A stretch of DNA of 64,000 nt from contig JAIOYV010000009.1 of assembly GCA_021740905.1 (NCBI GenBank), forward strand, positions 1-64,000, given 5' to 3'. Within the stretch, counting starts at the first letter, position 1. Each line of letters begins with the position of its first letter. Positions 27,431 through 46,436 of the stretch are shown here, one piece after another. The notes beneath the pieces were generated by a model that saw nothing but the letters and a program-made list of their open reading frames with translations, was not told the DNA's origin and ran no database searches. Source of the DNA: Bacteroidales bacterium (GTDB taxonomy: Bacteria > Bacteroidota > Bacteroidia > Bacteroidales > M50B96). The position numbers were made by a program, and so were the translations under genes.

Positions 27431-28672
27431 TTAATCCCGCACACACCGGACCGAGTAGCCTGTTTTTTTATTGGCGTGGTACTGGCTAACTGCAGCCACA
27501 TTGTAGGCAAGTCGCAGATATCTTGCATAAGTACTATTCTGCTCTGTGGCGCTCCACCAATAGCCATAGGTGCCTAGGCTCGAAAATGTTCCATTGAGGG
27601 AATACCGGTAGCCACCAGGAAGTGCATTGAAACCACTGTTGTTGGTTCCGCATGTATTAGGGCTGTTCCAGTGCAAAGTACCTGTTTCTTTTAACTGTCC
27701 ACCACAAGCATTGATCCCACCCAAATAATTAATCAGCGTTGTCCAATCAGTATCGTCAGGCACATGCCAACTCATTGGGCAGGCCCCTTGCACTGGATTT
27801 GAGGCTGAGGAACCGTTGCCTGCACCGTTCATAGCTGCAGTCCAAGTGTATAAAGCTCCATAATCGCCGCTGGGGTTGTTGTTGTAATAACAATAGGCAT
27901 CTGTATTAGTTAAACCCAAAGCTGTCCAGCCGGTATTGGAAGTTATATAAGGAATGTTTGCACCATTTGGATAATGGGTAGTCTTTAAGTTTTCTTTCAT
28001 CCAGCATTGATTACCAATTTGCACAGTATTGTAACTGTTTCCGTCGTAGTCAACAATTTGGTCGCCACACGCAAAATTGGGGTTGATGATATTGCTGTTT
28101 TGGGGATAGATCAGGGTATCTGCTGCTATTAGCTTTATCTGATAACCTTGGCCTGGTTGCATATTTCCTATTAGGTTTAGACCATACTGAGGCCAATACG
28201 ATTGTCCGTTCAAGTCTTTCAGAATAGACAAATTGCCAACAACGGGCGTAAGCATTAACTCTATATCAGCTGGTGTTGTGCGTAAATATCCCAGGATGCT
28301 CCAATTATTTGGCATTATGATAGGACAAGTATCAGGTTCAATAATGCTACCTGTGACAAGAAGGGTATCAGAATAAGTCAATTTGATTTGATATCCCTGG
28401 CCAAGCATAATGTCTCCAATCAAATTTACACCGTATTGGGGCAAGTACGATTGACCATTCCCATTTTTCGCAATCAACAGATTTGGCAGCACGGGGTTGA
28501 GCACATCGGCAATGTTGGCTTGAGTTGGCTGAATATAGGTTGAGATAATGCTCCAATTGGTAGGTAGGACAATGGTTTGGGTGTCGGGTGAGTTCGAAAG
28601 GCTATTGCCAGTTTGCGAAAAACCGATTTGGAAATGCAGGAAAAGTATGAGTATGAGATTGACTATTTTCAT
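27431..28672 (-). CDS. Secreted FISUMP-domain protein with two beta repeats
   Basis: A 413-residue exported protein. The ATG at 28672 gives a clear signal peptide ending near GFSQ. Two tandem repeats of about 75 residues follow (LPTNWSIISTYIQPT... and MPNNWSILGYLRTTP...), each ending in GQGYQIKL. The rest (about residues 205-413) is a FISUMP domain (Fibrobacter succinogenes major paralogous domain), recognisable by VQIGNQCWMKENLKT and the ending GYSVRCVRD. FISUMP proteins are surface or secreted, and their role is not known. No T9SS sorting domain is present. Confidence 0.85.
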   Translation of the reverse strand: MKIVNLILILFLHFQIGFSQTGNSLSNSPDTQTIVLPTNWSIISTYIQPTQANIADVLNPVLPNLLIAKNGNGQSYLPQYGVNLIGDIMLGQGYQIKLTYSDTLLVTGSIIEPDTCPIIMPNNWSILGYLRTTPADIELMLTPVVGNLSILKDLNGQSYWPQYGLNLIGNMQPGQGYQIKLIAADTLIYPQNSNIINPNFACGDQIVDYDGNSYNTVQIGNQCWMKENLKTTHYPNGANIPYITSNTGWTALGLTNTDAYCYYNNNPSGDYGALYTWTAAMNGAGNGSSASNPVQGACPMSWHVPDDTDWTTLINYLGGINACGGQLKETGTLHWNSPNTCGTNNSGFNALPGGYRYSLNGTFSSLGTYGYWWSATEQNSTYARYLRLAYNVAAVSQYHANKKTGYSVRCVRD

Positions 28673-28788
28673 TATTACGTATTGCATTATCAGTTTCAAA
28701 AATATTGAAATAAAATGAAAACAGCGGTGAATGGATAAATGTTCTTATAAACAGGAAGGAACAAGGAATGTCTGTTCCCATGATTCCA

Positions 28789-30970: not shown

Positions 30971-31097
30971 TGGAATTGCAATAAGAAAATTGGATTGATG
31001 GTTTAGGCAATAATCTATTGGTAGTATAGCGATAGGAATTTTACGATATTTTCAGAATCAAAAAAAAGCAAAAATTAATTTAACAAAAAAATACTTG

Positions 31098-34000
31098 ATG
31101 CTGAATCCCGTAGACTTTTACTATTTTTGGCAAAGCTTGGGGGCAATTAGGTACATATTACTTTTACTGGTATTTTCAATCAACCTTTCGTATGGACAGG
31201 TAGTTGATGTAAGTGATTTCTATTCCAATAACGAATTCTTTTTTCCAAAGTTTGAGCACCTGGGAGAGGATGAAGGTTTTCCAGTCAACAGAATTAGCTG
31301 TGTGGCACAAGACAACCTTGGTTATCTTTGGGTTGGTAGCATGGAAAATGGCCTTTTTCGATACGACGGTCATCAATTCGAATCCTTCGAACTTGACCAT
31401 ACAAATCCATTCTCGCTTCCGGGCAACGATGTGTATTTTATTCATGAGGATTCAAGAAAGATTCTGTGGATAGGGACAAATAAGGCCCTGTGTTATTTCC
31501 TACCTGAAAAGCACCAATTCATCAAAATGAAGATTGATTCACCTGACGATGCAAAAGGGTTAATCTTTACCAGTATTTTTGAAAATGAGATTGGCGATCT
31601 GTTTATTGGAACCAACAAGGGCATTTACTTGCTTTCAAATATTGCCCGATCCGATTTACTGGTTCAGGAACAACCTGTTTTGAATCCAGACTCAATGGGT
31701 ATTGAGCTTCACCGTATCGAAATCAATGTTAACAGTTCCATCAATTCAGTTTTAGAAGTGAAAGACCTTGCTGTTGATAAAGAAGGCAGGCTTTGGATCT
31801 TGCACGAACGAGTTTTAGGACTTTATACTACAATACATTCTTTTCAAGAAGCAATATCCGGCAATCAATACCCCATACATGGATATTATCAACAAATTGC
31901 TGAATTGAAATTAGCCAACAAACTGTGCCTTGATGAATCGGGAATATTAAGAACATCGTACGAAGATGAGATTATTAAGATAAATACGAATTCTCCAAAA
32001 ATTACTGTAGAAAGGCTAGGCATAAAATCAAATTTAGCTCAGATCGATGATTTTCATTCCATGGACAAACCCCGAAAAATATTTTGGGTGGGACACCACA
32101 TGATTGATATACATATTCTTGATGATGCAAGAAATAAGTTTTATCCTATATGTTTTGAATCATCAGATGAAAATTCCTTATTTGATAAAGGGGTAAGCTG
32201 TTTTCTTAGAACATCCTCCAATGTAATTTTTATTGGGACAGTCTGGGGTGGGTTGTTCAAATTTAATCCCTATTCATTTCAATCAAACTATCATCCCAAT
32301 CTTCAGTCAATCCATCTAAACCAACCGAACAACCTACGATACACGTATGAAGATTCGAGGGGATTGATCTGGATGATTGCAAGGGATGTGGATTGTTGCG
32401 ATAAAAATAGTGGACAGGTTCTGGCCACTTACGGCGATACTTTTTTCGATCATGAATGGCACTATAAAAACAAACTAATAGAAGATAAGAATGGGAGAAT
32501 GTGGATTGGCCTGGAGGGAGGTGGGTTGGGCTATTTCGATGTCCGGTTCGATTCCAGGAAAAATAGAAAAGAAGTAAAGACCACACCGCTACATCGCATT
32601 CTCAACAACAGCCATGTTTCAGCATTGTATGAAGATAAGGATGGAAATATATGGGTTGGTGCTTTTTATAATAGCAGGAGTAGTGTAGGCAAGAACACCT
32701 CATTGTTTAAAGTTTCCGGCGATGGTAAAATATTATCAGAGTATGTTATCGCATCCTGGCCTTATGGTTCTGAGGAGCGAATGAGCCATTTTATTAATCA
32801 AATAGTTGTGGATACTAATGGCTTCGCATGGTTGGCGACGGGGTTTGGACTTGGAAAATTCGATTTGCAAAATGCAAATATGGAATTGTTTCAATATCCC
32901 GAACAAGACTCCCTTTTAACCCATGGTTACCGATTTCTTACTCTTTTACCCGATCCCAATAAAAGTGATTCCATATTATGGATAGGAACAGCCGGCGGAG
33001 GCCTGCTTTCATTCAATAATACAAACAATTCTTTTCACTCCTATCATGAAGTAGTTGCAAAACATATCAATTCGATGCTTACCGATGATGCCGGTAGGAT
33101 TTGTTTGGGCACCACAGAAGGAATAATTCAGATTACTTTGAATAAGAATGGGGGCGAAATTTCAAGAGTTAAAAAATATGAAAAATCAGACGGGCTTATT
33201 ACCAATGATTATTCTTTTTACTATGGGCATAATGCGGTGAAAACAAAAAACGGTAGATTAATTTTTACAGGGCCCAAAGGATTTCAGGTAATAAATCCTG
33301 AACAAATAAAAAGTGATCCGTATATACCTCCGGTTTATCTTTCTGAATTTTTTCTGAATTATAAGCCCGCTGACTATTTAATACCTGGATCACCACTTGA
33401 AAAACCAATTTATCTTACTGAAAATATAAACCTGCCTTATGAACAAAATACACTTGGGTTTGAATTAAACGCATTAGATTTTAATTCTCCTAATCACCTA
33501 AACTATGCTTTCCTGTTAGAAAATTACGACAATGATTGGATATACACAGGAAACAAGAATGTAATTCATTATACCAAACTTCCATCAGGTAAATACAAGC
33601 TGAAATATAAATTGGCCAACAAAGATGGGTTATGGGGTGAAGCAACCGAGGGTTTACAGCTGCTGATTCTAAGACCCTGGTGGTTCGGCAACTGGGCTTG
33701 GATGGTTTATTTGCTTCTTCTATCAGCGGTGGTCATATTTTGGGTGAAAGTATTTCAATACAGACAAAAGATGAACATGCACATTGAGCTGAACAAAATG
33801 GAAGCCAACAAACTAAAGGAGCTTGATGCTATGAAATCGAAGTTTTTTGCCAATATCTCCCACGAGTTCAGGACCCCTTTAACCCTTATCATGAATCCGG
33901 TTGAAGTGATTCTGGATAACACCTCCGATACGCTTATCCGGCGAAACCTGCAGCTGATAAAGAAGAATGCCAACCATCTCTTGCAATATATTTCTGAAAT

Positions 34001-35420
34001 TCTTGATTTATCGAAATTAGAAGCAAACCGCTTAAGCCTGCATGTAAGGAAGGTCGACTTGAATGAAGTAGTGAGGAATCTCGTTGCATCGTTTGAATCG
34101 TGGGCACATAAAAAGCAAATTCACATAAAATTGAAATCGCCTGCGGGGATGCTTTTCTTTTTCCTAGATCCCGAAAAGATAAATACCATTTTATCCAATC
34201 TCTTTTCCAATGCCATAAAATACACTCCCGAGAATGGACAAATCAATATCGATATTTCTATTTGCAAGGGTGGATGCGTGGATCATTGCACCCTGAAAGT
34301 TGGCTGCCTGATTATCTCCGTCACCAATACAGGACCTGGAATCCCTCAAGAGAATTTGCCTTATATTTTTGACAGATATTACCGTGTTGAGAAGGATATG
34401 AACAAAAGTGAATATGGCACTGGTTTAGGCTTGACCCTGGTGAAAGAATTGGTACAACTTCATAATGGCACCATCAATGTAAAAAGTGTGGAAGGTGAAT
34501 TCACTAATTTCACATTGCGTTTTCCTCTTATTGAACCCCCTTTTGAATCGAAGGAAAATACAAGGGTATTTACCTTCGACACAAAAAGGGGAAATATCCA
34601 ATTGGATGAATGGGAAGAGGTTCAGGTATCGGAAAATATAGATCTTAGTCAGGATAAGGAAAAGAAGATAGTGCTGATAATTGAGGACAACCGGGATATG
34701 AGGTCTATATTAAAATCTGCCCTAAAGTCTACCTATAAACTCATTGAAGCTGAGGATGGGGATTTAGGCGAAAAACTGGCTATCGAAACCATTCCCGATA
34801 TTATTATCTCCGACTTAATGATGCCCAAGAAAAATGGTTACGAAGTAGCCCGTAGCCTAAAGTCGAATGAGATGACCAGCCATATCCCCATTATTTTGCT
34901 TACTGCCCGTGCCGACATCAGTGATAAAATAGCCGGTCTGGAAACAGGGGCCGACGATTACCTGATAAAACCTTTTTACGAAAAGGAGTTGAAAGTCCGG
35001 GTCAGGAATTTGATGGAGCAAAGGAAAAAGCTAAAAAACAAATACAGTCGCTTAAATATTTTGAAACTGGACAATCTGCCCGAGAAATCAATCGATCAGG
35101 CTTTTCTGGAAAAAGTAACCCGGCTCGCGTTGGAACATATTTCCGATGAGAATTTCGATGTTCAAACCCTTTTGGATAACCTTACGATGAGCCGTACCCA
35201 GCTTCACCGTAAACTGAAAGCTTTGACCAATCAATCGGCAACCGAATTCATCCGAAGTATACGCCTCCAAAAAGCCTCTGAAATGTTGAAAGGAAAAACC
35301 GGAACAGTGGCCGAGATTGCCTATCAGGTAGGATTTCAAAGCCTGCCTTATTTCAACAAAGTATTTAAGGAGTATTACGGGCATACACCGTCTGAGCATA
35401 TTGAGGAAGTGGGTGAATAA
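31098..35420 (+). CDS. Hybrid two-component system sensor-regulator (HTCS)
   Basis: A 1440-residue one-protein two-component system. It starts with a signal peptide or membrane segment, followed by a periplasmic two-part beta-propeller built of Reg_prop repeats (LGYLWVG, KILWIGT, GNIWVGA), a Y_Y_Y domain (about 800-865) and a membrane helix (about 870-895). The cytoplasm holds HisKA with H922 in SHEFRTP, a HATPase domain, a receiver with D1239 (DLMMPKKNG), and an AraC helix-turn-helix ending the protein. Such regulators usually sense sugar fragments and activate adjacent polysaccharide genes, but no SusC/SusD pair is near. The HATPase domain carries an unusual cluster C1056, C1060, C1064, C1070. 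The ATG at 31098 is preferred to the TTG just before it. Confidence 0.93.
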   Translation: MLNPVDFYYFWQSLGAIRYILLLLVFSINLSYGQVVDVSDFYSNNEFFFPKFEHLGEDEGFPVNRISCVAQDNLGYLWVGSMENGLFRYDGHQFESFELDHTNPFSLPGNDVYFIHEDSRKILWIGTNKALCYFLPEKHQFIKMKIDSPDDAKGLIFTSIFENEIGDLFIGTNKGIYLLSNIARSDLLVQEQPVLNPDSMGIELHRIEINVNSSINSVLEVKDLAVDKEGRLWILHERVLGLYTTIHSFQEAISGNQYPIHGYYQQIAELKLANKLCLDESGILRTSYEDEIIKINTNSPKITVERLGIKSNLAQIDDFHSMDKPRKIFWVGHHMIDIHILDDARNKFYPICFESSDENSLFDKGVSCFLRTSSNVIFIGTVWGGLFKFNPYSFQSNYHPNLQSIHLNQPNNLRYTYEDSRGLIWMIARDVDCCDKNSGQVLATYGDTFFDHEWHYKNKLIEDKNGRMWIGLEGGGLGYFDVRFDSRKNRKEVKTTPLHRILNNSHVSALYEDKDGNIWVGAFYNSRSSVGKNTSLFKVSGDGKILSEYVIASWPYGSEERMSHFINQIVVDTNGFAWLATGFGLGKFDLQNANMELFQYPEQDSLLTHGYRFLTLLPDPNKSDSILWIGTAGGGLLSFNNTNNSFHSYHEVVAKHINSMLTDDAGRICLGTTEGIIQITLNKNGGEISRVKKYEKSDGLITNDYSFYYGHNAVKTKNGRLIFTGPKGFQVINPEQIKSDPYIPPVYLSEFFLNYKPADYLIPGSPLEKPIYLTENINLPYEQNTLGFELNALDFNSPNHLNYAFLLENYDNDWIYTGNKNVIHYTKLPSGKYKLKYKLANKDGLWGEATEGLQLLILRPWWFGNWAWMVYLLLLSAVVIFWVKVFQYRQKMNMHIELNKMEANKLKELDAMKSKFFANISHEFRTPLTLIMNPVEVILDNTSDTLIRRNLQLIKKNANHLLQYISEILDLSKLEANRLSLHVRKVDLNEVVRNLVASFESWAHKKQIHIKLKSPAGMLFFFLDPEKINTILSNLFSNAIKYTPENGQINIDISICKGGCVDHCTLKVGCLIISVTNTGPGIPQENLPYIFDRYYRVEKDMNKSEYGTGLGLTLVKELVQLHNGTINVKSVEGEFTNFTLRFPLIEPPFESKENTRVFTFDTKRGNIQLDEWEEVQVSENIDLSQDKEKKIVLIIEDNRDMRSILKSALKSTYKLIEAEDGDLGEKLAIETIPDIIISDLMMPKKNGYEVARSLKSNEMTSHIPIILLTARADISDKIAGLETGADDYLIKPFYEKELKVRVRNLMEQRKKLKNKYSRLNILKLDNLPEKSIDQAFLEKVTRLALEHISDENFDVQTLLDNLTMSRTQLHRKLKALTNQSATEFIRSIRLQKASEMLKGKTGTVAEIAYQVGFQSLPYFNKVFKEYYGHTPSEHIEEVGE

Positions 35421-36591: not shown

Positions 36592-37515
36592 TTAATTTTT
36601 AACGCAACGCACTGACATCCCTGTGTTAGTTGGCCAGCCGAACCTTTTGGTAGTAGCTTGATTATGTCTCAGTCTTCTGGCCCAGGCATGAGTCGGGTCA
36701 AATTGAAGAGCTGTCCAGAAATCCCCGGTACCGCCGTAGAAAGTCAGGCCTGAGATTGTACCGCCGGGAAGGGCAGTAAATCCACTTATGTTTGTACCTG
36801 AGTTGGTAGACCAACCGGAAGTGGCCTTTAGTTTTGTACCCACATCAGTCCCAACTTGATCGGCATCTAAAACACTGCATGAAATAGTACCCGCATCAAC
36901 AAAATTTTCCATCGTACACCAATCATCATGGGTAGCAACACGCCAGCCCGACGGGCAAATACCCTGTGCACCTGCAGTAGTCGAGTATTCCATCATCTCA
37001 TCCCAGTAATATAATCCACCCCACAAGGTACAATTGGCCGGGTCATCCTGATAACAATACTTTTCAATCGTTCCATTATCGGTAGGCAAAGTCGAAGTCG
37101 ATTGAAGGATTTGGGTGCCGACATTAAGGTTTTCGGCCATCCAGCAAAGGTTGTCGATTTGAACTGTTGCATACGTTTTTCCATCGCGCGAATCGGTAAA
37201 GTCGGCCCCACAAGCCCAGGGGCTAAGGGTGCTTGATCCAAGACTTAACTCTTTCCAGTTTCCTGCCGATGAATCGTAAAAGTACAACCGGTTTACATCG
37301 GTGTTAAATACCACCAACCCATTGGCGGGGTTTTGAATGTCCAGGATTTGAGCTTCTGTCATCCGGGGGAATAGTACCCCTTGCGTTGTACTTTTCACAT
37401 CCAGTATGGCCGATGCGTCGGGATCGCTACCATCGGTGTTTATACCTACCTGGGCTTCCAGGCTAAAACTTGCAACCATTACAAGTGCTATTAATGCTAA
37501 TCTTATATTTTTCAT
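36592..37515 (-). CDS. Secreted FISUMP-domain protein
   Basis: A 307-residue exported protein: a signal peptide (about 1-21), then VGINTDGSDPDASAILDVKS, a segment common at the start of Bacteroidota surface proteins, and a FISUMP domain from about residue 105 (VQIDNLCWMAENLNVG) to the C-terminal MSVRCVKN. It is the third gene of the operon behind the giant T9SS protein and the small protein at 37550 (gaps 34 and 13 bases), so it probably works with them at the cell surface. It has no sorting domain of its own. FISUMP function is unknown. Confidence 0.83.
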   Translation of the reverse strand: MKNIRLALIALVMVASFSLEAQVGINTDGSDPDASAILDVKSTTQGVLFPRMTEAQILDIQNPANGLVVFNTDVNRLYFYDSSAGNWKELSLGSSTLSPWACGADFTDSRDGKTYATVQIDNLCWMAENLNVGTQILQSTSTLPTDNGTIEKYCYQDDPANCTLWGGLYYWDEMMEYSTTAGAQGICPSGWRVATHDDWCTMENFVDAGTISCSVLDADQVGTDVGTKLKATSGWSTNSGTNISGFTALPGGTISGLTFYGGTGDFWTALQFDPTHAWARRLRHNQATTKRFGWPTNTGMSVRCVKN

Positions 37516-37814: not shown

Positions 37815-40800
37815 TTAATTGTTTAATACTTTTTTACTGATTGTAGTGCCATTGTATGTCACCTTAACCAGGTAAATAGCCTGGCTGGCATGTAAGGCAA
37901 TTTCGTTGTTCAGACTTGATGTCTGTTGGTAAATGAGTCGTTGCCCGATGGCATTAAATACCTCAATATGTGCATTGAACTTACCATCAAAAAGACCCGA
38001 TTGAGTGAAATTGACATATATGAGCCCATTGGCACTATAGCACAAAACTGTATTGTTTTCATCCAGTTCAGCATTTTCAATTTCAGTAGTCATGGAAAAA
38101 TGGATACGTAAATTGCGCTGTGCCCCTGTAGTGTAAGTGATAGAATACTCGGGATTTATACGCAAGTTTTGCCAATAATTCAAGTCTTCATCCTCCAGGT
38201 AAACCGGGATTTGCGGGTCGAGGCTTTCAATTTCGCTTGCATGAATCTGATAAGTACCACTTTGTCCGGCCTCGAAATAGATGGGAACAATTTCATTCCC
38301 TGCAATAGATGGCAATGTGTTAATGGCCATGTTTTCGTTATCACATTTCGAGTAAATTACCGGGACATCGGGACTGTAGGGGATAATCTTTTTTGCATCG
38401 TACAACCTGTCGATTTGCGTCGTGGCATTTAGGTTGAAACGAATGGCCGTTTGAGTAGTGATACCATTTCCTGATGCTTTTAGCAGCAACATCGAATTAT
38501 TTGTTGAACTCTTATAAAATGGCTGGTCGCTCACGCCCCGGGCATTGTTGTCGAATTGTAAGGTGCCTGCCCCTCCAATCGAATTGATGAAAAAGCCCTG
38601 CCCCGATGCAATATACTGCGAGGTAGTATTTGCAACACCGCCACCATTTATATAGTACCGATAGTCGCCATTGGCACCCATAGCGGGATCGAATAGGTAG
38701 ATGGTGCCACTCAATTCAACCGGGATGGTAACCGCGTCCCAGTCGAGTTTCGATGGATAAGGGTTGCCCACAAGGTTGTAACCATAACTACTTTCGGTAA
38801 AGCCAATGGTTTGTGTGCTTGTATTACTTACACCTGTGAACACAAGCGTTGTGCTGTCGTTTCCCACCGCCCACGTCGAGTAACCTTGCATGGGGTTCAG
38901 TACATAGGTGGGAGAAGTAATATCGGTCCAGATACTTGTGACTTCGGAATACGATTGGAGAAAATTACCACTTAACATAGCCCCCGTTGCCGAAGCAATG
39001 GGCGATGAAATAAAATGCCAACTGCCTTGCGAAAGAAAACGTTCGACCCTCGTGGCTCCGTTTACACAAGTAACCGTACCCAGGTCGATAAGCGAGGCAT
39101 CGCCGGAACTATCCGATCGGAGCACCAGGTCGCCGGTGAGTAATTTCAGAGTTGTGCCTTCCATCACTTTGATATAGGTATTTGGCTTTACCTGCAAACC
39201 ATGAATAAATGTCAGGGAATTAGAATTTGGATTCGCATTTACAAGAACTGTAGCAGAACAAGTGGAGGAATTTCCATTGTAATCAGTAATAGTCAGTACC
39301 ACCGAATTATATCCAAGGTCGTTGATGTCGAAACTGGAATTATTTAAACTGAGGTTTGCAATGCCGCAATTGTCTGTCGATCCATTATTGATATCAGCAG
39401 CCACAATACTTGCATTTCCATAAAAATCGAGTTCAACTGTATGGTTCTGGCAAATTGCAGTAGGAGGAGTCACATCATCCACAACCACTGTTTGGGTTTG
39501 GGTTGAAGTGTTTCCATGCCCGTCATCGTAAGTCCAGGTTACAGTGTGGGTTCCCTGAGTTGTGTAAGTCAAGGGATCAGAAGTAGTACCTGTTATAGTT
39601 CCTGCACAGTTATCTGTAGCCGTAGGTGTGGTTGAAACAGTTGCACTACATTCTACTGTTATTGTTGGAAGAGTTGCAAGATCAGCGACAGGAGCTAGGT
39701 TATCTTCGACAGTAACAATGGCGTTGCAAGTTGAGCTGTTTCCGTTGCTATCCTCTACCGTTAAAACTAGTGGTACTCCATTATTACCGCTTAATTGTCC
39801 TTCCATGATTACGAAAGTCCATGCACCTAACTGCCATTCAAACAAATTGGTTCCACCAACTATGTAATTGCTGCCCGAAAGATTAAAGGTTTGCATCACA
39901 GATGCACAATTCACCCCATCATTAGGTCCAGCTGTTGATCCTAAACTTGTTCCATTAAAGAAATAAGGCATTGGTGCTCCGGTTCCGGAGAAATCAAATG
40001 ATAGACGAAGCTCTACAGAGGTAACAACTGTTCCTACTGGCAGGTTATCGTTCCATGTCCAGCCTTCCAAACCAGTATTGCTAATATACTGAGTAGCCGA
40101 ACATCCACCCCATGTGCTCCAATTTATGAGACTTGATTCGGTTAAAATGTATGTGGCAGATCCTCCTACATATTGTACAACAACTTCTCCCCAACCATTA
40201 ACAACCGGGCTTGATACATCGTTGCAATCAAAAGTAGTTACATCCAAGCTCATGCTGGCAATACCACAGGCATCGCTCGAACCATTGTCGATCTGGGCGG
40301 CAGTAATGCTTGCATTACCACTCGCATCCAATTGAACGGTTACGTCCTGACAAATTGCCGTTGGTGGAGTCACATCATCCACCACCACCGTTTGGGTTTG
40401 GGTTGATGTGTTTCCGTTTCCATCATCGTAAGTCCAGGTTACGGTGTAGGTTCCCTGTACTGTATAAGTTAGAGGATCGCTTGTGGTTCCGGTTACAGTT
40501 CCTGCACAGTTATCAGTAGCCGTTGGAGCTGTTAATGTGGCACTACATTCTTCTGATATAGTTGGCAATATGGTTACATCGGGAATCGGTGCTAAATTAT
40601 CTTCAACTGTAATAATCGCAGTACAGGTAGTGCTGTTTCCGTTTACATCGGTAACTGTAAGTACCACCGATGGTGAGGTTCCACCTCCGATTCCTGCTGT
40701 AAGGGGAGCTGTTGAAGCAACCCAATCTGAGGCTGGTTCCATATTTATCAAAGTACCATCATGACCATTACTGGTTATATCGGATAAGATACTTCCGCTT

Positions 40801-43800
40801 CCATCTTCAAAATTATAATAAGCCAACAAGCCTGATTCGGTACCAGATAGAGTTGTGCTCTGTGTCGATTGGATTTCTGAAAGTGTTCGGGCATAATCCC
40901 AAAGTCTCACCTCATCAATCATACCTTTCCAATTGCAACCCGTATTGCCATGTCCTCCTATTGAGAATGCACCTCCATCGGTATAGCCGGGAACATTATT
41001 GTTTACGGCAATTAAAACGCCATTCTTATACATGGAAAGCGTATTGCTTGCTGCATCATAAGTCAATGCAACATGTACCCATATATTGGTTGAGAAGTTA
41101 ACATTATCTTCAACCAAGTTATAATCGGTCCCATGACCACCGTTCAATTTATTAAATATCCAGAATATATGCTTATTGGCAGCAGAAAGGATGTTACGAC
41201 AATCTGTGGTCTGGGCATTCACCCATGCTTCCTTCGTATAGGAGCCACCAGTAAGGATTCCATTTCCAATTTCAACCCTTTCATTTGTCCCATCGAAATT
41301 GAGTGCAAAGTTATTGGCAGGGGCCGATGATCCACTCTGAATATCACTACAATCAAAACTGGTAACATCCAGACTCAGGCTTACAGGCCCACAAGCATCG
41401 CTCGAACCATTGTCCACCTGGACGGCAGTAATGGTTGCATTACCACTTCCATCCAATTGAACGGTTAGGTCTTGGCAAACTGCATTTGGTGGAGTCACAT
41501 CATCCACAACCACTGTTTGGGTTTGGGTTGATGTGTTTCCGTTTCCATCGTCATAAGTCCAGGTTACAGTGTGGTTTCCCTGAGTTGTATAAGTCAATGG
41601 ATCAGTAGTAGTACCTGTAATAGTTCCGGCACAATTGTCGGTGGCTGTTGGGGCAGAGGTAATTGTAGCATCACATTCCCCGGTTGCGGTCGGAAGGGTT
41701 GCAAGATCGGCAATAGGAGCCAAATTGTCTTCAACTGTAATCGTAGAGGCACACGTTGCCATGTTACCGCTGTTATCTTCAACGGTCAAGGTGACTACAT
41801 TTCCATTTGCGAAAACACCATTTGTCCATTCTGTTCCTGCCATATTGGTCAATGTTCCATTGCTCGATCCTGCCAAATCCGTTAGGGCAGTTCCTGTACT
41901 TTCGTCGAAACTGTAATAGTGTACCAATCCGCTTTCATTCCCATTTAAGACCGAATTCATGGATGCCTGGATTTCAGTTTGAGACCTGGCTACATTCCAA
42001 ACCCTCAACTCATCAATTGTCCCATTCAGGTGCTCAACACCCCAAGTGGTTCGTCCTATATTTGTTGTTGAGTTGGAAATTCCGACCGGCTCGCCCGTGG
42101 TATTTCTTACAACCACATAAGCGATAGGGCTTCCATCTATATAAACTTTTACCTGATCCTGAGTGGTAGGCCCGGCTGATGGGTCATAAACACCGGTCCA
42201 ATGATGCCAATTTGTATCTGTTATTTGGTTGGCATAGTAAACAGTCATGATCCAGTCGTCATTCACATCTTTCAACTGGAAATAACCATTTGCCGCAAAT
42301 CCGATGTGGCTATTGCCGCCACGGATCAAAATAGACTGGAGATTTTCACCGGCAGCCAATTTCACCCAAGCTTCGATGGTTATCTTGCTAAACCCTTCGT
42401 TCATGCCCGTACCAAGTTCTATATAGTCATCCGATCCATCCATTTCAAGAGCGAAATCTGGTGGCCCGGTAATATCTGAGCAGTCGAAAGTAGTCTGGCT
42501 CAGCGACATCGTATTTATTCCACAGTTGTCGCTTGAACCATTGTTAATGTCAGAAGGAACAATGCTTGCTTCGCCGTTTGCATCCAGTTGAACTATTATA
42601 TCCTGACAAACTGCGGTAGGTTCCACATCGTCGACAACTGTAATGGATGTTGTACATTCATCGGTACCTGTTCCATCACTCACTATCAAGGTAACATTGG
42701 TTATTCCCAATGGATATGGACCTGCAGGTAAGACTGAAAACGTAAGAGGGTCACTGTCTGCATCGCTTGAATTAAGATTGAAATCGGTAGCAACTGCAGC
42801 ACCCTCACAATTATTATTAGTAGAAACAGTCACTGGCTGGCAATCCGCAACAGGTAATGTATTGCTTAGTGTCAAAGCAACATCGTTCCCGTCCCCTCCT
42901 GTATAGGTAATCTGGAATTGGGCAATGCCCATAGTCACGAAACTCCCTTCAGCCTGTCCATTGAAATTTCCGCTTATGACATCTGTTCCATCATTGTTGA
43001 GTATCACAATGTCGCCCACTGGCGAAACACTTGCCAAACCATCCAAGAATCCGGCAAGGGTGATTGTACCGTTTACGATAAGTTGGTCGTAGTCGGTGCA
43101 GACAGTTGATCCGTCGATTTCGGTATAGAGCGTAGCACCACCGGCCAGGTTATAATTTCCGTTTATGGTAAGGCAGCCTGGGGATGCGCCAGGGTTGAGG
43201 ATGCCACCATTGGCGGTGACATTTCCGTTAATGGAGCCGGAACCTTTTAGTAGACCTCCTTCGACGTACAATCCGCTGGTTACACTTAGTGTAATGTCAT
43301 TTATGAAAGTACCATTTATGATGTCAACTCTTTTAAAGGTCTCATTATTCGCAATATTTGCGGTGTAGCTATTGTCCGTTTTGTTAATGGCAAGGTACCA
43401 TTGCGATCCGGCTGCAGGTCCTGTATACGACCCATTTGCAGAACCGCCCAAAATGATATAGGCTGTTCCATTAATATTATTGTCTGTTGATGTTACGTCA
43501 CCATGTACTTCAATCCCTCCATAAGTGCCCATTGCCGCATCTTTATTAATTGCCGCTACACTGGTTATGGTAAGGTTGCTGTTTACAACCAGATTTTGGT
43601 TTTGGAGTGTTATGTTTGAGCCTGTGTTAATTTCAAGGTTATCAATGCTTCCTGAAAAATCGACAGTTCCTGCATCGTTAAACACAAGCTTGCTACCTCC
43701 TGGACACTCGATCCTTGGGCCCGTACCGGTAAGTGAAAATGCACCGTTCCAGTATTTGTTCAAATTCATATCGGTTGAAAGGATTACATTGAATGTTCCC

Positions 43801-46130
43801 TTACTTATGTGCAGGTTGTGCAAACTACCGGTACCACTTAGGTTTTGAGTGGCTGTGGTGTTGGTCATACGGATGTAGCAATTTCCGTCCATATCGACAT
43901 CGTTGGAGATGACATTCCCTTTTACATCAATGCCATCGTTATCGCTTGTAGCAATTGATTCATTTATAGTTGTGGCATTCTGAATCAACAAATCATTGTT
44001 CACCATTAGGTTTTGATCGTAAACAGTCAGGCTGATACCCCCGTCAACTTTTACATTGTCAACACTTCCTGAGTAATAAACCCGCCCAACATTGTCATTA
44101 AATATGAGGTAACTTCCATTGGTGTTTTCAATCCTGGGGCCAGGGCCGCGTAATTCAAAGTATCCATTGGCATCCATTTTTAAGGTAAAATCGGATGGTA
44201 CAACCACATTATGTGTACCCTTGTCGACATACAAAAGGTGCAAAGCACCGGTACCGCTCAACGTCTGGCTGGCTGTGGTATTTGTCATACGGATAAAGGC
44301 CGATCCCTGAATACTTGCATCATTCGACATCACATTACCTTTTACATCAATACCATCGTAAGTACCCATCGCTGCATCTTTATTAATTGCCGCTACACTG
44401 GTTATGGTAAGGTCGTTGTTTACAACCAAATTCTGGTTTTCTATGTTGATGTTTGAGCCAGTATTAATTTCAAGGTTGTCGATATTTCCTGAAAAATCGA
44501 CAGTCCCCGCATCATAGAACACAAGTTTGCTGCCCCCCGTACATTCAATCCTTGGTCCTGTGCCGGTAAGCGAAAAGGACCCATTCCAATATTTATTTAA
44601 ATTCATATCGGTAGAAAGGATTACATTAAATGTACCTTTGCTAATGTAAAAATTGTGCAAACTACCTGTGCCACTTAGGTTTTGTGTGGCTGTGGTGTTG
44701 GTCATACGGATGTAACAGTTCCCGTCCATATCGGCATCGTTTGAGATTACATCCCCTTTTACATCTATCCCGTCATTATCATTTGTAGCAATTGATTCGT
44801 TTATCGTAGTCGCATTCTGGATCAGCAAATCGTTGTTCACCTGTAAGTTCTGATCATAAACTGTCAGGCTTATACCTCCGTCAATCTTTACGTTGTCGAT
44901 AGTTCCGGAATAATACACACGTCCTGTATTGTCATTAAAAATAAGGTAACTCCCATTCGTGTTTTCAATCCTTGGGCCAGGACCATGCAATTCAAAATAG
45001 CCATTGGCATCCATTTTTAAAGTAAAATCGGAAGGTACTACCACATTGTGTGTACCCTTGTCGACATACAAAAGGTGCAAGGCACCGGTACCACTGAGAG
45101 TCTGGCTGGCCGTAGTGTTTGTCATCCGGATAAAGGCCGATCCGAGAAGGCTTGCATCATTCGATGTCACATTTCCTTTTACATCAATGCCATCGTTGTC
45201 GTTTACAGCAATTGATTCGTTTATAGTTGTGACATTCTGAATCAACAAATCGTTGTTCACCATAAGGTTTTGATCGTAAATAGTCAGGCTGATACCTCCG
45301 TCAATCTTTAGGTTGTCGATAGTCCCGGAGTAATATACCCCTCCTACATTGTCATTAAATATGAGGTAACTTCCATTGGTGTTTTCGATCCTGGGGCCAG
45401 GTCCTCGTAATTCAAAGGCTCCATTGGCACTCATCTTTAAAGTGAAATCGGAAGGTACAACCACATTGTGTGTACCCTTGTCGACATACAATTTGTGCAG
45501 GACGCCGGTACCACTGAGGGTCTGGCTGGCCGTAGTGTTTGTCATCCGGATAAAGGCCGATCCGAGAAGGCTTGCATCATTCGATGTCACATTTCCTTTT
45601 ACATCAATGCCATCGTTGTCGTTTGTGGCAATATTTTCGTTGATGGCCGACACATTGCTATTAATCAGCAAATCGTTGTTCACTGTCAGGTTTTGACCAG
45701 AAATTGTAATACTTCCAAGGCTTATGGAAAGGTCGTACAAAGCGGACATGCTGTTCACAGTTACGTTCCCGTTTAGGACAACTGATCCTGTTCCAGCATT
45801 AAAGCCGGTGATACTGGCCACACTAAAACCACTGGTTACAGTGAGGGCGTTGGTGCCCAGGCTTACTACACCAGTGTAAAGTACATCAACGGTGAAGCTT
45901 TTAATACCATAGTTCCCATCAATACTACAATTAGCCACCGATGTAGCATCGAACACCACATCATCGGCAGTGCCAGGTAGAACATCGCCCGACCAGTTTG
46001 TGGGCGTGCTCCAGAGTCCGTCTCCACTGCTATTGTCCCAGGCAATGGTTGCCGCATTGGCAGATATGCCAAGGGCCCAAATCACACCAAGTAGAAGCAC
46101 AAACCGGAATAAGTAATTTTTCGTTTTCAT
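37815..46130 (-). CDS. Giant T9SS-exported surface protein with beta-helix, HYR and LamG domains
   Basis: About 2,771 residues. The ATG at 46130 gives a signal peptide ending in ANAA. Residues about 163-860 hold five tandem ~140-residue repeats in the order A-A-B-A-B, which look like a beta-solenoid (GIDVKGNVTSNDASLLGSA, then GPGPRIENTNGSYLIFND). From about 1,090 come hyalin-like HYR domains (PTAVCQDIIVQLD; TGTTSDPLTYTTQG). Three of the AVCQ/AICQ domains contain an inserted domain in the same loop: two LamG-like (about 1217-1443 and 1595-1817) and one different beta domain (about 1970-2117). A fourth is intact. The last ~85 residues are a type A T9SS sorting domain (EVFNAIGQRLIYQQ ... TYNGTTISKKVLNN). 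The protein is probably an adhesin or a surface-layer scaffold. Confidence 0.85.
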   Translation of the reverse strand: MKTKNYLFRFVLLLGVIWALGISANAATIAWDNSSGDGLWSTPTNWSGDVLPGTADDVVFDATSVANCSIDGNYGIKSFTVDVLYTGVVSLGTNALTVTSGFSVASITGFNAGTGSVVLNGNVTVNSMSALYDLSISLGSITISGQNLTVNNDLLINSNVSAINENIATNDNDGIDVKGNVTSNDASLLGSAFIRMTNTTASQTLSGTGVLHKLYVDKGTHNVVVPSDFTLKMSANGAFELRGPGPRIENTNGSYLIFNDNVGGVYYSGTIDNLKIDGGISLTIYDQNLMVNNDLLIQNVTTINESIAVNDNDGIDVKGNVTSNDASLLGSAFIRMTNTTASQTLSGTGALHLLYVDKGTHNVVVPSDFTLKMDANGYFELHGPGPRIENTNGSYLIFNDNTGRVYYSGTIDNVKIDGGISLTVYDQNLQVNNDLLIQNATTINESIATNDNDGIDVKGDVISNDADMDGNCYIRMTNTTATQNLSGTGSLHNFYISKGTFNVILSTDMNLNKYWNGSFSLTGTGPRIECTGGSKLVFYDAGTVDFSGNIDNLEINTGSNINIENQNLVVNNDLTITSVAAINKDAAMGTYDGIDVKGNVMSNDASIQGSAFIRMTNTTASQTLSGTGALHLLYVDKGTHNVVVPSDFTLKMDANGYFELRGPGPRIENTNGSYLIFNDNVGRVYYSGSVDNVKVDGGISLTVYDQNLMVNNDLLIQNATTINESIATSDNDGIDVKGNVISNDVDMDGNCYIRMTNTTATQNLSGTGSLHNLHISKGTFNVILSTDMNLNKYWNGAFSLTGTGPRIECPGGSKLVFNDAGTVDFSGSIDNLEINTGSNITLQNQNLVVNSNLTITSVAAINKDAAMGTYGGIEVHGDVTSTDNNINGTAYIILGGSANGSYTGPAAGSQWYLAINKTDNSYTANIANNETFKRVDIINGTFINDITLSVTSGLYVEGGLLKGSGSINGNVTANGGILNPGASPGCLTINGNYNLAGGATLYTEIDGSTVCTDYDQLIVNGTITLAGFLDGLASVSPVGDIVILNNDGTDVISGNFNGQAEGSFVTMGIAQFQITYTGGDGNDVALTLSNTLPVADCQPVTVSTNNNCEGAAVATDFNLNSSDADSDPLTFSVLPAGPYPLGITNVTLIVSDGTGTDECTTSITVVDDVEPTAVCQDIIVQLDANGEASIVPSDINNGSSDNCGINTMSLSQTTFDCSDITGPPDFALEMDGSDDYIELGTGMNEGFSKITIEAWVKLAAGENLQSILIRGGNSHIGFAANGYFQLKDVNDDWIMTVYYANQITDTNWHHWTGVYDPSAGPTTQDQVKVYIDGSPIAYVVVRNTTGEPVGISNSTTNIGRTTWGVEHLNGTIDELRVWNVARSQTEIQASMNSVLNGNESGLVHYYSFDESTGTALTDLAGSSNGTLTNMAGTEWTNGVFANGNVVTLTVEDNSGNMATCASTITVEDNLAPIADLATLPTATGECDATITSAPTATDNCAGTITGTTTDPLTYTTQGNHTVTWTYDDGNGNTSTQTQTVVVDDVTPPNAVCQDLTVQLDGSGNATITAVQVDNGSSDACGPVSLSLDVTSFDCSDIQSGSSAPANNFALNFDGTNERVEIGNGILTGGSYTKEAWVNAQTTDCRNILSAANKHIFWIFNKLNGGHGTDYNLVEDNVNFSTNIWVHVALTYDAASNTLSMYKNGVLIAVNNNVPGYTDGGAFSIGGHGNTGCNWKGMIDEVRLWDYARTLSEIQSTQSTTLSGTESGLLAYYNFEDGSGSILSDITSNGHDGTLINMEPASDWVASTAPLTAGIGGGTSPSVVLTVTDVNGNSTTCTAIITVEDNLAPIPDVTILPTISEECSATLTAPTATDNCAGTVTGTTSDPLTYTVQGTYTVTWTYDDGNGNTSTQTQTVVVDDVTPPTAICQDVTVQLDASGNASITAAQIDNGSSDACGIASMSLDVTTFDCNDVSSPVVNGWGEVVVQYVGGSATYILTESSLINWSTWGGCSATQYISNTGLEGWTWNDNLPVGTVVTSVELRLSFDFSGTGAPMPYFFNGTSLGSTAGPNDGVNCASVMQTFNLSGSNYIVGGTNLFEWQLGAWTFVIMEGQLSGNNGVPLVLTVEDSNGNSSTCNAIVTVEDNLAPVADLATLPTITVECSATVSTTPTATDNCAGTITGTTSDPLTYTTQGTHTVTWTYDDGHGNTSTQTQTVVVDDVTPPTAICQNHTVELDFYGNASIVAADINNGSTDNCGIANLSLNNSSFDINDLGYNSVVLTITDYNGNSSTCSATVLVNANPNSNSLTFIHGLQVKPNTYIKVMEGTTLKLLTGDLVLRSDSSGDASLIDLGTVTCVNGATRVERFLSQGSWHFISSPIASATGAMLSGNFLQSYSEVTSIWTDITSPTYVLNPMQGYSTWAVGNDSTTLVFTGVSNTSTQTIGFTESSYGYNLVGNPYPSKLDWDAVTIPVELSGTIYLFDPAMGANGDYRYYINGGGVANTTSQYIASGQGFFINSIGGAGTLQFDNNARGVSDQPFYKSSTNNSMLLLKASGNGITTQTAIRFNLNATTQIDRLYDAKKIIPYSPDVPVIYSKCDNENMAINTLPSIAGNEIVPIYFEAGQSGTYQIHASEIESLDPQIPVYLEDEDLNYWQNLRINPEYSITYTTGAQRNLRIHFSMTTEIENAELDENNTVLCYSANGLIYVNFTQSGLFDGKFNAHIEVFNAIGQRLIYQQTSSLNNEIALHASQAIYLVKVTYNGTTISKKVLNN
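43551..45644. repeat. Five near-identical ~419-bp coding repeats (A-A-B-A-B)
   Basis: Inside the giant gene, five in-frame repeats of about 140 codons follow each other. Type A units are close to identical to each other over long stretches, as are the two type B units, while A and B differ. A2-B1 and A3-B2 look like a duplicated two-unit block. This layout favours recombination and copy-number change. Confidence 0.85.
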
Positions 46131-46436
46131 ATTGAAATATTTAATTATTATTTTTTTATTGTCTAAAATCGCTGTCTCGAAAACTCTCTGATTCAACCAG
46201 GAATTCCTTCGTGTGCAAAGCTATTTTTCGATCCGTTAGCACACTAAATGATATGTTCCAAAATCACACTCGTATGTTCCAAAAGTGTGAAAAGCGAGTG
46301 TTTCTGGGTGTTTTTGGAGGGAACTAAAAGGAAGATTGCTGATAAATATGAATCTTACGAATAGTATCCTGTACTTGAATTTTGCCTATCTTGCCCTGCA
46401 AATTAATAGGTTTTACTGATAGGAGAAATATTCGAA
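46131..46436. promoter_or_regulatory. Divergent control region with 21-base-spaced direct repeat
   Basis: This gap drives two secreted-protein genes in opposite directions. TAGCTTTG on the minus strand (46223-46216) is a good -7 box for the giant gene. ATGTTCCAAAA occurs twice (46253-46263 and 46274-46284), exactly 21 bases apart, at about -43 to -74 from the expected start. Nearby, CACTCG and CGAGTG, and CACAC and GTGTG, pair as inverted repeats. For the plus-strand gene, TTTG (46381) and TAGGTTTT (46407) form a weak promoter. Confidence 0.5.

Follow-up and report, generated by a model that had tools for sequence, protein, structure and literature searches.

A four-cysteine cluster in the ATPase domain of a Bacteroidales hybrid sensor kinase, and a conserved four-cysteine insert at the corresponding hairpin in kinases of the KSB1 phylum

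The window analysed here is a stretch of 64,000 nucleotides from a Bacteroidales bacterium (assembly GCA_021740905.1, contig JAIOYV010000009.1, positions 1 to 64,000), which carries at 31098..35420, on the forward strand, the gene of a hybrid two-component system (HTCS) protein with four closely spaced cysteines in its kinase ATPase domain. Work on HTCS proteins treats them as sensors of sugars whose single input is periplasmic, and a metal or redox site in the catalytic domain would add a cytoplasmic one. Do these cysteines form such a site, or are they an accident of a variable loop? An earlier sequence-only reading of the locus had proposed that they bind zinc or an iron-sulfur cluster or respond to redox state. 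That interpretation is partly supported, as the location and the unusualness of the cluster hold, but no close homologue of it was found. The stronger discovery, new here, is a conserved four-cysteine insert in the same hairpin of HTCS-type proteins of the KSB1 phylum.

The cysteine cluster in the kinase core

The open reading frame (ORF) starts with the ATG at 31098, its stop codon ends at 35420 and the product has 1440 amino acids; a TTG is also present in frame at 31095, just ahead of the ATG. The domains found with Pfam, all above cut-off, are in order Reg_prop repeats, Y_Y_Y, HisKA (912-976), HATPase_c (1024-1144), Response_reg (1192-1302) and an AraC-type helix-turn-helix (HTH) domain (1361-1433), with no match to a PAS domain. 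With HisKA, HATPase_c, receiver and AraC-type HTH in a single chain, the protein is an HTCS-type hybrid sensor. Hydrophobic 19-residue windows begin at 10-20 and at 862-870; the Reg_prop/Y_Y_Y sensor part precedes the latter membrane segment, as expected of an HTCS, and probably lies in the periplasm. The same set of sensor, HisKA, HATPase_c, receiver and AraC-type HTH in one protein is described, in passages of PMC3404733, for Bacteroides HTCS such as BT1754 and BT0366. Unlike those, the window protein has a cysteine cluster in the hairpin between the N-box and the G1-box and no SusC/SusD among its ten scanned neighbours. Among the open-licence papers listed on the subject, going by title and abstract opening, none concerns cysteines inserted into the ATPase domain of an HTCS protein.

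The stretch bearing the cluster reads ...ICKGGCVDHCTLKVGCLIISV... and contains Cys1056, Cys1060, Cys1064 and Cys1070 (numbered from the ATG) in the spacing C-x3-C-x3-C-x5-C, with His1063 directly before Cys1064; the ORF translation agrees exactly with what had been read earlier. As also claimed then, the cluster lies between the N-box and the G1-box; it is inside the Pfam HATPase_c match. Positions 34257..34307 on the forward strand encode the last part of hairpin strand 1 together with the cluster-bearing loop, with the codons of Cys1056 at 34263..34265, Cys1060 at 34275..34277, His1063-Cys1064 at 34284..34289 (Cys1064 starting at 34287) and Cys1070, 7 residues ahead of the G1 Asn, at 34305..34307. 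The whole protein has 12 cysteines, and residues 890-1440, after the hydrophobic segment, have none besides these four. Four random positions among those 551 residues span so short a distance with p ~5.5e-5, and when the sequence of the entire protein is shuffled, 6 of 5000 trials yield four cysteines within 15 amino acids; these and the other chance statistics are post hoc, the feature having been picked because it looked odd. At a loop background of 1.1% cysteine, 0.12 loops with four or more cysteines per 33 amino acids are expected among 256. In the tree set of 75 C-terminal regions (median cysteine count 3), the window protein alone has four cysteines in 15 amino acids and one other has three. 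The observation of the cluster is solid, and its statistics are unusual.

An AlphaFold2 model of residues 905-1160, based on an alignment with 45 relatives, has a mean predicted local distance difference test (pLDDT) score of 82 and a standard kinase core, the top match among the chains compared being HK853 (Z 24.1). In the model, strand 144-152 closes at Cys1056 and strand 166-174 opens at Cys1070 (residue = model + 904), and Cys1060, His1063 and Cys1064 fall in the connecting loop. By this strand assignment the cysteines are placed at strand ends (the outer two) and in the loop (the inner two), which bears on the earlier caution that they might point into the core; Cys1056 and Cys1070 would lie opposite one another at the base of the hairpin.

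Concerning kinases generally, the stretch from N-box to G1 spans 20 to 65 residues across 255 other distinct loops, a set in which HTCS and other kinases are mixed, 47 come from the same genome and relatives of the window protein are over-represented. No cysteine is found in 198 of these loops, one in 44, two in 10, and three, five and six in one loop each. The statement that HTCS proteins normally lack cysteines at this place is thus mostly right, but 57 of the 255 loops have one or more. The cluster itself is uncommon among relatives in this comparison, so the alternative that such cysteines are common in the subfamily does not hold. When kin are collapsed at 60%, a cysteine stands 7 residues ahead of the G1 Asp in 11 of 212 loops, and 7 of the 212, a larger number than expected, have cysteines on both hairpin strands (odds ratio 6.8, p 0.001; 5.9 and p 0.004 without the window protein), for strand zones picked after inspection of the data. 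One kinase of the same genome (L004, G000:C158) has a cysteine on each hairpin strand (EIC-EDNSDHI-CLKF), resembling the outer pair of the window protein. Three other hairpin loops (L042, L045, L094) contain inserts that resemble translated short repeats or palindromes, e.g. NPPSRGD...PPFRGDGRG, which suggests, as far as such sequences go, that small repeats can land in the hairpin loop and are tolerated there. For the loop of the window protein, an origin as a mobile or palindromic insert is rejected: the genome contains no significant second copy of the loop DNA (best other match E 0.49), and no inverted repeat turned up in the region around it (33500-35400).

The genome of the window (G000, 6.5 Mb) contains 59 kinase-region matches, the window protein included. 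Among the 14 of 177 candidates scored, no second protein aligns to the sensor over its full length, the next best (149 bits) matching the kinase and receiver only; the genome does encode further Reg_prop proteins, whose open frames reach up to 1296 codons. Three genomes of the same family have no match to the sensor at E 1e-120. Because neither another full-length HTCS among the scored candidates nor a same-family match was found, horizontal acquisition of the gene is possible. Across 393 genomes of the order, with two candidates scored per genome, the matches listed are 29-44% identical to the sensor and the best-scoring one 39%; a scan of a genome collection (84,980 species by its own description) gave 149 relatives; the best 80 of these, used for the comparison, have at most 48% identity over the best segment. 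No relative was found in viral contigs. In the tree of 75 rows the window protein is a lone long branch (1.3), at most 45% identical to any row.

None of the loops readable from the order matches and from the best 80 of the 149 collection relatives contains the cluster, these sets being restricted to matches that span N-box to G1, with each gene counted once. The exact motif spacing plus G1 pattern is found in one of 395 genomes of the phylum, that of the window. With one mismatch allowed, it is found in two of 386 genomes of the order (a set overlapping the former), the window's own and G127 (L304), the latter not in any kinase frame; a reversed-motif control likewise gave one match (G264).

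A conserved four-cysteine insert in KSB1-phylum kinases

The two loops with five and six cysteines belong to two KSB1 HTCS proteins, L068 and L070. The search covered three KSB1 genomes first and afterwards 82 genomes from the phylum to which G783, the source genome of L070, belongs; 14 of the 82 have a match at 1e-50. Six HTCS-type proteins from four genomes (L068, L070, L277, L284, L285 and L296) share four hairpin cysteines; L068 and L070 are KSB1 by record, and the others come from the same genome or from the same phylum by the grouping of the tool. L068 and L070 have the full HTCS architecture, and the other four were compared around the kinase. The four-cysteine insert is thus present in 6 of the 25 distinct loops compared (L292 and L293 stand outside the 25).

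The spacing of the insert is C-x19-C-x2-C-x(11-17)-C, the spacer ahead of the last cysteine varying in length. Of its 48 alignment columns 6 are invariant, namely a Leu, a Pro and the four cysteines; the remaining insert residues are 15-39% identical from pair to pair (67% in L068/L070, which are closely related), and the kinase outside the insert is 61-76% identical (93% for L068/L070). Because the cysteines stay fixed while the other residues of the insert drift, it resembles a metal or cluster site, and we regard it, on the basis of these alignments, as a separate candidate for a metal site. An origin of these loops as simple-repeat insertions, for which L068 looks repeat-like, is excluded, since L277, L284, L285 and L296 keep the cysteines without the repeat.

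The insert and the cluster of the window protein are alike in having four cysteines in the same hairpin and the last one at the same offset from G1 (7 residues before the Asp in 6 of 6 KSB1-phylum loops, and before the Asn for Cys1070). They differ in that the insert takes up ~48 columns, whereas the window protein has the compact C-x3-C-x3-C-x5-C and does not fit the KSB1 spacing. A profile of the six four-cysteine loops, run against the 395 genomes of the window's phylum with 12 candidates scored per genome, matched two proteins of one genome (E up to 1e-18), both without the cluster. The tree, a quick one with long branches present and loop columns removed, sets the window protein and the KSB1 inserts apart, with two changes needed and starred branches that force two; the test is weak, as shuffled labels give a similar number of changes (mean 2.5, 219 of 500 as low). 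A common origin is unsupported by this tree. Because the tree does not join them and their spacing and length differ, the sequences give modest support to separate origins at the same site.

Candidate roles of the cluster

The explanation that we tentatively put first is that the four thiolates make up a metal site, probably for zinc, which is specific to this lineage and sits in a hairpin that tolerates change. An otherwise ordinary HTCS would have gained a compact Cys4, or possibly Cys3His, site in the surface loop of the N-box/G1 hairpin, most likely one that holds a single thiophilic ion, probably Zn2+. The site would be closed by Cys1056 and Cys1070, at the facing strand ends, and by Cys1060 and Cys1064 (or His1063), from the loop. 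In favour of this reading are the confinement of all cysteines of residues 890-1440 to so short a span, unique among the 75 C-terminal regions, the strand-end positions of Cys1056 and Cys1070 in the model, the KSB1-phylum insert with its last cysteine at the offset of Cys1070, and the recurrence of cysteine pairs across the hairpin. The bound ion might then stiffen the hairpin, or tie kinase output to metal or thiol redox state. Metal binding, the kind of metal, the opposed placement of the strand-end cysteines and a possible influence on the kinase are inferred; a second, cytoplasmic input to the kinase, as suggested in the sequence-only reading, is a hypothesis. A metal or redox role is plausible because of the conserved four-cysteine insert in the same hairpin of the KSB1 proteins and because the Staphylococcus aureus kinase SrrB, discussed below, has a cysteine there too. 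A bolder and less likely reading is that the N-box/G1 hairpin of HTCS ATPase domains is a docking site for small cysteine modules that sense metal or redox state, with at least two independent origins, one in the lineage of the window protein and one in the KSB1 phylum. If so, cytoplasmic metal or redox state could gate a carbohydrate sensor by way of its ATP-binding domain. The KSB1-phylum insert makes the question of a metal or redox site in the ATPase domain testable where selection is visible, beyond the orphan protein of the window.

Several points weigh against a metal site. The N-box/G1 loop is, judging from the loops aligned, hypervariable and tolerant of inserts, and the loop of the window protein is uncertain in the AlphaFold2 model (block mean pLDDT 65 for residues 1055-1064). 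Selection on its cysteines is unsupported, because the searched data hold no homologue of the cluster. To our knowledge, the CxxxC spacing is also unlike that of the common zinc knuckles. As for the KSB1-phylum insert, it is poorly predicted as well (AlphaFold, L068: pLDDT 42-54 in the insert blocks), and L084, 84% identical to L070, has lost the insert along with three of the four cysteines that the six have in common, so the module is dispensable. A Pfam scan of the window protein and three KSB1-phylum loops gave HATPase_c only, besides a sub-threshold DUF4616 match in L277.

A close rival, which we hold quite possible, is that the cluster arose by accident in this lineage, in a hypervariable hairpin loop that is exposed to solvent and accepts nearly every sequence, and that it has no metal, redox or signalling role. 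The range of 20-65 residues and the great diversity of the loop sequences agree with such neutrality, as do the absence of the cluster from every relative with a readable loop and the confinement of the exact motif to the window's own genome in the phylum and order searches. The hairpin strands are also somewhat rich in cysteine, as the 11 of 212 loops with a cysteine 7 residues before the G1 Asp indicate. An accident is harder to reconcile with the packing of all four cysteines of residues 890-1440 into 15 residues, and with a strictly conserved four-cysteine insert in the same loop elsewhere. If the loop is neutral, the cluster documents the tolerance of the N-box/G1 hairpin.

A thiol redox switch is the less probable alternative: a reversible Cys1056-Cys1070 disulfide, with Cys1060/Cys1064 as a second pair, would alter the dynamics of the ATP domain in the manner proposed for SrrB. 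According to passages of two reviews, a disulfide in the ATPase domain of SrrB renders the kinase activity redox-sensitive (PMC8534201, PMC8774646), and SrrB is the sole case of ATPase-domain redox sensing named there. One of the reviews adds, in the passage concerned, that fully oxidised SrrB retains ~60% activity and that its cysteines are not conserved across all staphylococci. In the SrrB sequence of PDB 6PAJ, two cysteines spaced by 37 residues lie in the strand that precedes the N-box and in hairpin strand 1, and a third cysteine follows further on. We take the first two to be the disulfide pair, presumably Cys464/Cys501 in SrrB numbering, a spacing of 37 that agrees with this sequence. 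SrrB and the window protein thus both have cysteines in the ATPase domain, and one of SrrB lies in the same hairpin as the cluster; however, the window protein lacks both SrrB positions (the one in the hairpin, counted from the N-box Thr, is an Ile) and has no cysteine ahead of the N-box in its cytoplasmic part. Cross-hairpin cysteine pairs do recur, including that of the paralogue L004, which speaks for a switch, whereas four cysteines in 15 residues would suit a metal site better than a single switch.

The third alternative is an oxygen-labile [4Fe-4S] cluster in the hairpin, with a chemistry like that of the kinase NreB but placed in the ATPase domain. NreB binds its [4Fe-4S] cluster by four cysteines in a PAS domain and its activity is gated in this way, as stated in passages of PMC4601167. 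Both kinases have four cysteines in a cytoplasmic part, and those of NreB control activity; the NreB cysteines are N-terminal, in the PAS domain, whereas those of the window protein are in HATPase_c and no PAS match is found. Despite the four cysteines in a short stretch and the precedent of NreB, such a cluster is highly improbable here, as the small exposed loop would offer little shielding and the spacing fits no iron-sulfur motif that we know of.

Genomic surroundings

An adjacent SusC/SusD locus is typical of HTCS genes without defining them: in B. thetaiotaomicron, 28 of 32 HTCS genes adjoin polysaccharide-utilisation loci, according to passages of PMC3404733. The gene of the window has no such locus beside it; the earlier remark that a SusC/SusD neighbour is lacking is correct for the ten ORFs from 23288 to 49311, the range covered by the Pfam scan. 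SusC was not searched genome-wide; five SusD-like matches are found in the genome, four above the family cut-off and all on other contigs. Among the products of these neighbours are RNase R and a pair of FISUMP proteins, besides an HYR/laminin-G protein and a protein sorted by the type IX secretion system (T9SS). The HTCS, SusD and T9SS signals point to a genome of the Bacteroidota. The FISUMP (Fib_succ_major) genes, at 27431-28699 and 36592-37515 on the reverse strand, flank the HTCS and RNase R genes. Also on the reverse strand, at 37815-46196, is the gene of a protein of 2793 amino acids with laminin-G-like and HYR domains by Pfam, including the four-cysteine HYR type.

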